DNA of 64,000 nt from Bradyrhizobiaceae bacterium. GTDB taxonomy: Bacteria > Pseudomonadota > Alphaproteobacteria > Rhizobiales > Xanthobacteraceae. A program made the translations under genes and the position numbers. The stretch's first letter is position 1. The number at the start of each line of letters is the position of its first letter. Below, piece after piece: positions 2-7,157 of this stretch. Location: positions 1 through 64,000 of the forward strand of contig RXJC01000250.1 in NCBI GenBank assembly GCA_003963435.1, in the 5' to 3' direction. The notes under the pieces were generated by a model. The model ran no database searches and was not told the DNA's origin. It saw only the letters and a list, made by a program, of their open reading frames with translations.

Positions 2-211
2 ATCCGACATGGCGGCGACAAGGCATTTTTCGCGCCGGCGCTCGATCTCATCCAGATGCCGCCATTCGAGAGCTTCCGTGACGCGGAGAGCTACGCCGCC
101 ACGCTCGCGCACGAATGCGTGCATTGGACTGCGCCGGCGCACCGCGTCAATCGCGACCTCAGCCGTTACGCCAAAGATCGGAGCGAGCGTGCCCGCGAAG
201 AGCTGGTCGCC
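2..211 (+). pseudogene. ardC: ArdC-type antirestriction protein, internal fragment (piece 1 of a split ardC; open at window edge)
   Basis: Frame 2 reads IRHGGDKAFFAPALDLIQMPPFESFRDAESYAATLAHECVHWTAPAHRVNRDLSRYAKDRSERAREELVA; HECVH zincin motif; stops matching at 211 where an inverted repeat begins. Confidence 0.85.
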
Positions 212-453
212 TTATCTTGACAGTCTGCACCGACTCTCAGCGTCTTGCTTACGTCGATGCAACAGGACTGACGGAGGCGGTAGGTCTTGTCCCCACGTGT
301 GGTGAGCTCGGTGGAGCAAAGCCGTCCGCACGCGCGCCATCCAATAGCGCCGTAGCGGGCGGACGGCTTTGCGGTGCTCACCGCCGGCCGTAGCGTTCCC
401 ACATAGCTGGCGACGGCCGGCCTGGATAGCGCCGGGCAAGTTGAACTCCTTCG

Positions 454-1896
454 TTGATGCTGGCTCCCCGGATGGGGGTCCGGGGGAAGGTTGAACAACT
501 TGTGGACAACGTAGCGCCGGCTTTGAACATCACCATTCAAGAGCGCCGATCGGCTGACGGCCTTGATGCACACGTCCCTATGATCCTGCGGGACGGGGCA
601 CTCTACGATCCTGATCTGGATCGCTTCTTCCGCGACCTTCCCCTCAACGGCGTCCGCTCACGGCACTCCCTTCGTGCGTATGGCTATGACGTCCTGGTCT
701 GGGTCCGCTTTCTTTCGGAAGCCTGCGGCAAGTCCGTATGGCAAGGTGATCGTCGCGACGTCCTTGCCTATCATCGCGTTCGTCGCCGGACGGAGGCCGG
801 CCAACGTATCTCCGCGGCGTCCTGGAATCGAGCTGTTGCCTGTCTCGATCGGCTCTATCGTTGGGGCGTTCACGAAGGCTTGCTCCCTGAAGCACCGTTC
901 ACGCACCGCTCGGTTTGGAGGCAAGGATACGGCGGTCGGCGTGCGCAGATTACAGCCCGCAATGACGCCTATGAGCCGGCTGCACGTCGAGCAGATGTCA
1001 GCTTTGTCACGCTCGATGACTACCGGGTATTTCGGGACGTCGGCCTCAGAGGGCTTATGCCTGATGGCGGAGCGCGGCCGGGAGCGCGTGATCGCAACGG
1101 CATTCGCAATGCGTTGTTTTCCGACATCGTTGTGACGACGGGCCTTCGGCTGGAGGAAGCCTCCTTTCTGTTTGCATCCGACCTTGCTGCCGTGGATCGG
1201 CGAACAGCTCGACAGGTATGGCTCGATCTACCGGACGCGCTGACGAAGGGCGATCGTGGTCGCCAGATTCTTCTTTCCGGTCGACTGCTTGAACAGGCGC
1301 GGGCCTACATCGCGGTTGAACGAGCTCACGCCGTCACTAAGTTCCGACAACGCTCCGGCTGGCGCTCGTACGAACGCCCGATCTTCGTTCACAGGGAGCG
1401 GTCAGCTTCCCGGTTGCGACTACTCGACGGGAGTGACGTCGTTCTTGATCTGCTGAGCCCCGAAGAGCGCAGCAGGATCATCGTCTGTGATGATGACGGT
1501 ACACCGGGCGAGCCCGCCGTGCTGTGGCTCACGGAAGTCGGATTGCCAGTTCAACCGAACTCCTGGGAGGTGATCTTCGCCCGGGCATCCGAGCGGTGCA
1601 GGTCTCTCAGCTTTTCCGTCAACATCACGCCGCACCAGCTCCGCCATACCTTTGCCGTGCATATGCTCGCGATGCTGATCCAGCAGCGGATTCGAGATGC
1701 AGCGTTGCCCGCTGGCCCGATCGAAGGATATCGGCAGATCCTCGGCGATCCACTCCAGCAAGTGCAACGGCTGCTTGGCCACGCCAGCCTTGCAACGACC
1801 TACATCTATCTCGATCACATCGCTTCGCGCGCCGATACCGTTGATGCAGCCGTCGAGGAGTTACTGGCGCTGCTTCCCTCGGAGCACTCGTTATGA
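454..1896 (+). CDS. Tyrosine recombinase/integrase, first of trio (GinA-like)
   Basis: 480 aa; box I TTGLRLEEASF, box II HQLRHTFAVHML, LLGHASLATTYIYLDH. Confidence 0.85.
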   Translation: MMLAPRMGVRGKVEQLVDNVAPALNITIQERRSADGLDAHVPMILRDGALYDPDLDRFFRDLPLNGVRSRHSLRAYGYDVLVWVRFLSEACGKSVWQGDRRDVLAYHRVRRRTEAGQRISAASWNRAVACLDRLYRWGVHEGLLPEAPFTHRSVWRQGYGGRRAQITARNDAYEPAARRADVSFVTLDDYRVFRDVGLRGLMPDGGARPGARDRNGIRNALFSDIVVTTGLRLEEASFLFASDLAAVDRRTARQVWLDLPDALTKGDRGRQILLSGRLLEQARAYIAVERAHAVTKFRQRSGWRSYERPIFVHRERSASRLRLLDGSDVVLDLLSPEERSRIIVCDDDGTPGEPAVLWLTEVGLPVQPNSWEVIFARASERCRSLSFSVNITPHQLRHTFAVHMLAMLIQQRIRDAALPAGPIEGYRQILGDPLQQVQRLLGHASLATTYIYLDHIASRADTVDAAVEELLALLPSEHSL

Positions 1897-5839: not shown

Positions 5840-6189
5840 CGTCAGAGCTCCGGACCTGAGGTTGCGGCCGCGCCGGGTGGTTCTCGCCGGCGTCCGCCCC
5901 GGCTTGGTCGGAGCGCGCGATGCCCCGCACGGCCGCGCAACGGCTGATCGCCGTCCTCCGCTATCGCTTCGGCTCTGCGAGTGCGCGGTCGCGCTTTCAG
6001 GCATCGCAGGTGGCTGCTCCGCCGCCGGGGAGGGACCCCGGCCGAACGGGAGCACCCATCATGATGAGACAGCACAAAACCAAAGACGGCCGCCCTGTCG
6101 GGCGGCGGGAGAGGACGAGGAGGGCCGGAATCGGGCGGCCGGTTGAGGGAGTGAGAGAGGCTTGCTCCGCCGGCCGCGGAGATTCTCCC

Positions 6190-7095
6190 ATGTCCTATAC
6201 ATCGAGTTCGGCGGAGCGCGCCGATGTCTATACCCGCATCACCGCCGAGATCGTCGCCGCGATCGAAGCTGGCGCCGGCGAATGGCGCATGCCCTGGCAT
6301 CACGACGGCACTGCCATCACCCGTCCTCAGAACGTCTCGTCAGGCAATCGATACCGTGGCGTCAACGTGCTCGCACTCTGGATCGCTGCGCAAGCTCATG
6401 GCTATGCAGACGGCCTCTGGGGAACCTATCGGCAATGGCTGGCTATCGGCGCGCAGGTACGCAAGGGCGAACGAGGAACGACGGTTGTTCTCTGGAAGCA
6501 GGCAAAGGCGGCCGCCAACGATGATGCAGATGATGGTAACGATGATGTTCGTCGCCGCGTCTTTGCACGTGCATTCACGGTGTTCAATGTCGCCCAAGTC
6601 GATGGCTACGAACCTCAGGTCATCGAGCAGCTTCCAGAGATCGATCGCCTCACTCACGTCGGCGAGTTCATCGATGCGCTGAAGATCCCGATCGTCACCG
6701 GCAACTACAATGCACACTACCGCATCGACACCGACACGATCTTCATGCCGGACTACGCGGCATTCACGAGCGCGGCCGCCCAAGCCGGCACCTTGATCCA
6801 TGAGGCAGCTCATGCCACGGGCGCAAAGCACAGGCTCGACCGGAACTTCCAGGAACGGTTCAAGCATGATTGGCTGCCGATCGAAGAAGCCACCGCCGAA
6901 TTGACCGCTTCTTTCATCCTGGCGGATTTGGGTGTCGCCCATCATCCCAGGCCCGATCACGCCGCCTACGTGGCATCTTGGTTACGCCTCCTCAAGGATG
7001 ACCCTCGCGCCATCTTCACCGCCGCCAGCAAAGCCCAGCAGGCGGCTGACTGGATGCATGCCCAGCAGCCTCGGACCGGGGAGATGGCGGCATGA
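6190..7095 (+). CDS. ardC: ArdC family antirestriction protein / zincin-like metallopeptidase (element cargo)
   Basis: Reads MSYTSSSAERADVYTRITAEIVAAIEAGAGEWRMPWH...LIHEAAHATGAKHRLDRNF...; ORF is open from 5920 but homology starts about 6190. Confidence 0.85.
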   Translation: MSYTSSSAERADVYTRITAEIVAAIEAGAGEWRMPWHHDGTAITRPQNVSSGNRYRGVNVLALWIAAQAHGYADGLWGTYRQWLAIGAQVRKGERGTTVVLWKQAKAAANDDADDGNDDVRRRVFARAFTVFNVAQVDGYEPQVIEQLPEIDRLTHVGEFIDALKIPIVTGNYNAHYRIDTDTIFMPDYAAFTSAAAQAGTLIHEAAHATGAKHRLDRNFQERFKHDWLPIEEATAELTASFILADLGVAHHPRPDHAAYVASWLRLLKDDPRAIFTAASKAQQAADWMHAQQPRTGEMAA

Positions 7096-7157
7096 TCACC
7101 ACCATCCTCAACGGGGTAAAATTTCAAAAAAGGGCTAGACTGTCAGGATATGTCGCC

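Follow-up and report, generated by a model that had tools for sequence, protein, structure and literature searches.

Genomic islands of the GInt type are characterized by the ginABCD genes (Bardaji et al. 2017, PMC5385486) and have been named the Tn6571 family (PMC10121019). The gene that follows ginC in these islands, ginD, encodes a small helix-loop-helix (HLH)/coiled-coil protein which is essential for recombination of a Pseudomonas GInt. A published survey reported no ginC-ginD blocks in Alphaproteobacteria (PMC10214605). The DNA analysed here, referred to as the window, is a stretch of 64,000 nucleotides of contig RXJC01000250.1, a plasmid-like contig of an alphaproteobacterial metagenome-assembled genome (MAG), and it contains an element of 6,940 bp (212-7151) inserted in an ardC gene. 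We consider it very probable that this element is a compact ginABC-type tyrosine-recombinase transposon which brings a spacer from the left flank of its donor site, targets ArdC codons and carries a replacement ardC.

Relationship to described elements

Like GInts, the element has three recombinase genes, homologous and identically ordered, and it inserts at specific sites, with short repeats on its flanks and a spacer of 6 nt. It belongs to a large family on alphaproteobacterial plasmids that differs from GInts in lacking ginD, in size (5.7-14 kb as opposed to tens of kb), in its target (the active site of ArdC, compared with ssb or an ABC transporter gene in GInts), in often being present in multiple copies and in carrying ardC. 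GInts have 2.5-70 kb of cargo and an AT-rich 3' end. The copy in the window has only ardC after ginC and a GC content of 42% in its last 60 bp by direct count. Relatives of the element carry ars or mer genes.

In two other groups, the SEs (PMC10214605) and the Tn554 family, especially Tn552-II (PMC12486829), the right attachment site (att) of a new copy is likewise derived from the left flank of the donor. SEs resemble the element further in their 6-bp footprint and imperfect terminal repeats, but are described as having the gene set intA-tfp-intB-srap and occurring mainly in Gammaproteobacteria, and the proteins of SEs and GInts group separately (PMC10214605). Tn552-II also carries a target-gene-like gene (tgl), which has been suggested to rescue the broken target (PMC12486829). 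By description, the Tn554/Tn552-II elements differ in having tnpABC, a 7-bp spacer and Staphylococcus hosts, while in the window the three recombinases are all large and a small third protein is absent. In addition, tgl of Tn552-II keeps a copy of the att site, whereas most of the ardC genes carried by gin elements have lost the target. RIT elements (PMC3414803, PMC10214605) are similar in possessing three adjacent tyrosine recombinase genes and terminal inverted repeats, in their occurrence on alphaproteobacterial plasmids and, as seen here, in also lying inside ardC. They differ in the size of their proteins (315-410 aa, as opposed to 474, 594 and 721 aa in the window), their length of about 3.5 kb and their repeats of roughly 30 bp, compared with imperfect repeats of 15 bp.

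Ends of the element and its recombinase genes

The element is bounded by imperfect inverted repeats which are identical at 13 of 15 positions, TTATCTTGACAGTCT on the plus strand (212-226) and ATATCCTGACAGTCT on the minus strand (the reverse complement of 7137-7151). A copy of GTCGCC adjoins each end on the plus strand, at 206-211 on the left and 7152-7157 on the right. A preliminary description of the window had reported both features, and they are exact to the base. Judged alone, the repeat in the window is weak, with two matches at no more than three mismatches in 64 kb compared with 0.9 expected, and it is accepted as real because it is near-invariant in relatives. These relatives were taken from a set of 103 loci obtained from a scan of GTDB genomes and from plasmid searches. 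The consensus TTATCT[TG]GACAGTCTGC, with conservation of the left repeat extending onward to GCRCCG, was found in nearly all of the 84 readable left ends, and ACTGTCAGGATA in nearly all of the 84 readable right ends. The same ends are thus common to relatives in up to 103 loci, and the boundaries of the relatives agree with those first proposed for the window.

A Beijerinckiaceae MAG contig (L041) has an identical copy of all 6,940 bp, with no mismatches, in another ardC with the right flank GTGGCG gagata, and the ends of the element are fixed because the flanks of this copy are different. A Nitrobacter MAG contig (L042) is composed of 6,816 of the 6,940 bases; the host assignment of both MAG contigs is uncertain. 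Several elements constitute entire contigs of 6.5-6.9 kb, which is expected since multi-copy repeats collapse in assembly.

The three recombinase genes lie on the plus strand in overlapping reading frames. The first, a ginA homologue (472-1896, with the same start as in relatives), encodes a tyrosine recombinase of 474 aa with the pattern R..HxxR..H..Y and a complete catalytic set (R232, H394, R397, H443 and Y452 in the numbering of alignment A2). It is followed by homologues of ginB (1893-3677; 594 aa) and ginC (3674-5839; 721 aa). The GInt-like character originally proposed is supported gene by gene, since GinA, GinB and GinC are 30%, 24% and 35% identical (E-values of 2e-46, 6e-29 and 9e-63) to the products of a ginABCD-type operon on Klebsiella plasmid pKPN-8c6e, an operon picked for its organisation and not drawn from the 2017 GInt paper. 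GinC had no match among PDB sequences. A clear ginD-like gene had not been seen after the third integrase gene in the window, and this absence is general: in the 103 loci searched, no open reading frame 3' of ginC resembles the Klebsiella GinD or the GinD of E2, a second gin element in the genome of the window (see below). The most compact copies have only about 107 bp outside ardC after ginC. Copies of the window family are mobile yet encode no ginD, although a ginD located elsewhere may help them in trans.

Target site in ardC

The 5' piece of the interrupted ardC (2-217, plus strand) encodes part of an MPTase-PolyVal zincin domain with the motif HECVH (Pfam PF18818, E-value of 9.5e-24) and has intact homologues. 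Host sequence accounts for 2-211 of this piece, after which the frame enters the element as TTA TCT TGA and stops at 218-220. The 3' piece (VAEIGSALMCADLGIVPELEPRPDHASYVESWL; 7152-7259, plus strand) is cut off in turn by a RIT-like element. Joining the flanks with one GTCGCC gives ...SERAREEL-VA-EIGSALMCADLG..., which matches the intact ArdC of other plasmids and so upholds the initial view that a single copy of GTCGCC restores the frame. Translation across the join gives EELVAEIGSALMCADLG, the sequence present in intact ArdC proteins of plasmids. The joined site is matched over at least 80% by 365 plasmid records, and those listed have it in a single uninterrupted piece.

The insertion in the window falls within the codons of the catalytic glutamate helix, between E-E-L-V-A and the following E. 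The glutamates of this helix in R388 ArdC are E228 and E229, the latter being a metal ligand (PMC7213743), and the element therefore docks at codons that ArdC can hardly change. The flanks of the relatives conform to the consensus GAnGAnnTn-N6-GAnnT, with at most one exception among 70 readable sites per side, and in 66 of the 68 readable left flanks it falls on the E-E-L-x-A-E codons of a gene for an ArdC-type zincin. The two others lie in ligD in Shinella and in an unidentified gene in pTi2788. The ligD insertion (L021; Shinella sumterensis, CP132317.1) is near the 3' end of the gene and alters the C-terminus of the ligase.

The carried ardC

A second ardC, which the preliminary description does not mention, is carried complete within the element (6190-7095, plus strand), and its stop codon is located 56 bp before the right end. 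The gene encodes ArdcN and MPTase-PolyVal domains (Pfam PF08401, E-value of 4e-42; PF18818, 1.2e-38), and its product matches the R388 ArdC structure 6i89 (E-value of 3e-50) and has the motif HEAAH and a glutamate helix reading E-E-A-T-A-E-L. About 88 of the 103 loci have an ardC after ginC, and the ArdC proteins borne by gin elements come close to being a single clade (two label changes on the tree). Carried ardC genes are under purifying selection, as dN/dS is about 0.04-0.18, and the zinc ligands are retained in the carried copies. The target site is lost in 72 of 80 carried genes, where an Ala or Cys codon stands in place of the Leu codon of E-E-L and invariant target positions are gone, whereas all 28 of the free ardC relatives tested keep it. 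These features suggest that the carried ardC is a self-immune replacement gene, a reading that draws on few independent events. The contrast in site loss (72/80 versus 0/28) was rejected as a significant phylogenetic test, as it represents about three changes and independent pairs give a p value of 0.5.

An alternative is that the carried ardC is plain cargo, retained for its own anti-restriction benefit when a plasmid enters a new cell, and that its likeness to the broken target is incidental. ArdC does aid plasmid establishment in restricting recipients (PMC7213743), the carried and broken ArdC of the window are only 36% identical, and elements without ardC exist which still insert in ardC. 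The regular placement of ardC after ginC and the near-single clade argue in the other direction, and cargo status does not predict loss of target codons that every free relative tested has kept, so that this explanation appears unlikely, if still worth weighing. It is a good deal less probable that the carried ArdC takes part in recombination as a Spartan-like protease which clears covalent recombinase-DNA adducts during copy-out, in a step served elsewhere by GinD or host repair. The ArdC fold is that of a Spartan-like metalloprotease (PMC7213743), the authors of the SE study call for a DNA-protein-crosslink repair step (PMC10214605), and conservation of the zinc ligands would fit such an activity. 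E2-type elements, however, have both ginD and ardC, and two elements with intact ends (L058 and L024) have neither, which also rules out ArdC as a general substitute for GinD.

The 6-bp spacer

In this family the 6-bp spacer is not DNA of the element itself: its left copy belongs to the target, and its right copy has come from the donor's left flank. The left and right 6-mers are unequal in 49 of 61 copies. Eleven genomes have two or three copies, and in 15 of these 26 copies the 6-mer on the right is one that a sister copy has on its left, compared with 3.7 +- 1.8 (maximum 11) in 20,000 draws from the same 6-mer pool. Directed right-to-left links occur in 10 of the 11 genomes (3.2 under the null), and 11 links persist when GTCGCC is excluded, compared with 1.5 expected. 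There is no excess of left 6-mers shared between sister copies (4 versus 6.2 expected) or of shared right 6-mers (3 versus 3.4). In Sphingobium 15-1 the links form a chain from L102 to L101 to L103.

The left 6-mer is recognized as the native one from three comparisons. The ligD copy in Shinella has AGCCCC on the left and ATCGCC on the right; empty ligD genes have AGCCCC in S. oryzae and AGTCCC in S. sumterensis, and the strain's other copy has ATCGCC at its left end. L103 and L027 have identical flanks and GTGGCT on the left in both, but GTGGCG and GTCGCC, respectively, on the right. Finally, CGGGCC is the left 6-mer of the copy on Tardibacter p3 and the right 6-mer of the copy on p4, while L026, from another genome and in a target closely similar to that of p4, has the same left 6-mer as the p4 copy and a different right one. 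By the rule seen in these relatives, GTCGCC at 206-211 of the window is host-derived and that at 7152-7157 donor-derived. The preliminary description had left GTCGCC as either a 6-bp crossover or a target duplication and had named empty sites as a check; with the left 6 bp native at empty sites, the relatives decide for a crossover spacer. A conventional cut-and-paste integrase that makes a 6-bp target duplication, with the 6-mer pattern arising by chance from conserved ArdC codons, would account for the equal 6-mers of the window copy and 12 of 61 copies, but it is highly improbable and plain duplication is ruled out by the unequal 6-mers, by sister-copy links far above the same-pool null even without GTCGCC, and by empty ligD genes having only the left 6-mer.

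The rule that the att site is brought in, known from Tn554 and SEs, is shown here for gin-type elements, where it was previously open; the authors of the SE study refer to strand bias in GInts as "elusive" (PMC10214605).

Proposed mode of transposition

Given the 15-bp imperfect inverted repeats, a circular form would carry the core site AGACTGTCAGGATAT-N6-TTATCTTGACAGTCT. Natural copies show that the element enters at GAnGAnnTn-N6-GAnnT, in practice the E-E-L-x-A-E codons of the ArdC glutamate helix, leaving the 6 bp of the target on the left and bringing the 6 bp of the donor's left flank to the right. GinA may preferentially exchange one strand with GinB and GinC as partners, in which case the circle would keep the left-flank spacer and the element would spread by copy-out/copy-in, as reported for SEs and Tn554 relatives. 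By entering ardC of conjugative plasmids the element would travel with them, and the carried ardC, with its target codons lost in most lineages, would replace the destroyed function without being a target itself. We put forward only tentatively, as slightly less probable than the opposite, the complete picture of a ginD-independent three-recombinase family that uses DNA for the ArdC active site as its attachment site on unrelated plasmids, has evolved a recoded, self-immune ardC as a substitute for the one it breaks and moves by a strand-biased copy route carrying the donor's left 6 bp.

Several observations count against parts of this account. The window copy has GTCGCC on both sides, which is compatible with the spacer rule but cannot alone show it, and equal 6-mers within one copy are somewhat in excess (12/61 versus 6.0, p 0.011). 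In three genomes (L022/L023, L029/L038 and L031/L039) the 6-mers are reciprocal, the right 6-mer of each copy being the left 6-mer of the other, an arrangement not expected under the simple one-way rule. It would be expected if an element integrated in tandem at the right end and one copy was later lost. Searches for a circular junction in IMG/VR, in 398 genomes of the order and in the collected loci were negative, though rare circles may exist. With regard to the carried ardC, target loss corresponds on the tree to about three changes, the target site persists in the Mesorhizobium-type carried ardC, and a TGC site received one insertion (L045), which speaks against self-immunity. Some elements (L058, L024, L111 and L119/L120) have no ardC, and rescue is therefore not obligatory; obligatory compensation is ruled out, as copies without ardC also enter ardC.

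A second gin element, RIT-like elements and distribution

E2 (L009) is located at G000:C1 870-12013 on the minus strand. It sits at the same codons of another ardC, with ATCGCA and GTCGCC as its 6-mers, and its ginABC are 43-48% identical to those of the window. As an island E2 is fuller than the element in the window: besides ginABC it has a ginD-like gene for 146 aa, an ardC of its own and genes for mercury resistance. Bosea sp. AS-1 has two E2-type copies, which obey the same 6-bp rule.

The RIT-like element (7278-11101) interrupts the target ardC a second time, about 120 bp downstream of the gin element. It has 36-bp inverted repeats (94%) at 7278-7313 and 11066-11101, and recombinase open reading frames on the minus strand at 7364-8398 and 8365-9729, with probably one more. 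At six loci (L029, L038, L050, L064, L080 and L087) the translated left flank gives way, right at the HExxH codons of the same ardC, to a foreign sequence common to the six (..CRYRH..HW[TS]..), and two of these loci (L029 and L038) have three RIT-sized recombinase genes upstream. It may be that each of the two active-site motifs of ArdC is the target of a different recombinase trio.

The GTDB scan yielded 183 relatives, while a class-wide sample of 387 genomes gave no GinC match at an E-value of 1e-20 outside the genome of the window itself; prevalence is accordingly low and patchy. A search of IMG/VR found no relatives. In the plasmid collection searched, the 16S sequence of the MAG was closest to Hyphomicrobiales records, and genes of the window have matches on rhizobial and Bradyrhizobium plasmids. 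Plasmids of Streptomyces, Rhodococcus and Mycobacterium encode distant GinC- and GinD-like proteins, and ginABCD-like operons may reach well beyond Proteobacteria.

Implications

With these results gin-type elements gain an exact attachment site, and the compact form without ginD could serve as a minimal test system. The natural copies provide evidence on the strand bias that has been hard to establish for GInts. After Tn552-II, the family is a second case of an element bearing a version of the gene that it targets, and in most lineages the target seems to have been erased from the carried ardC. The family also illustrates how an element can exploit an active site as an almost universal place to dock on conjugative plasmids.
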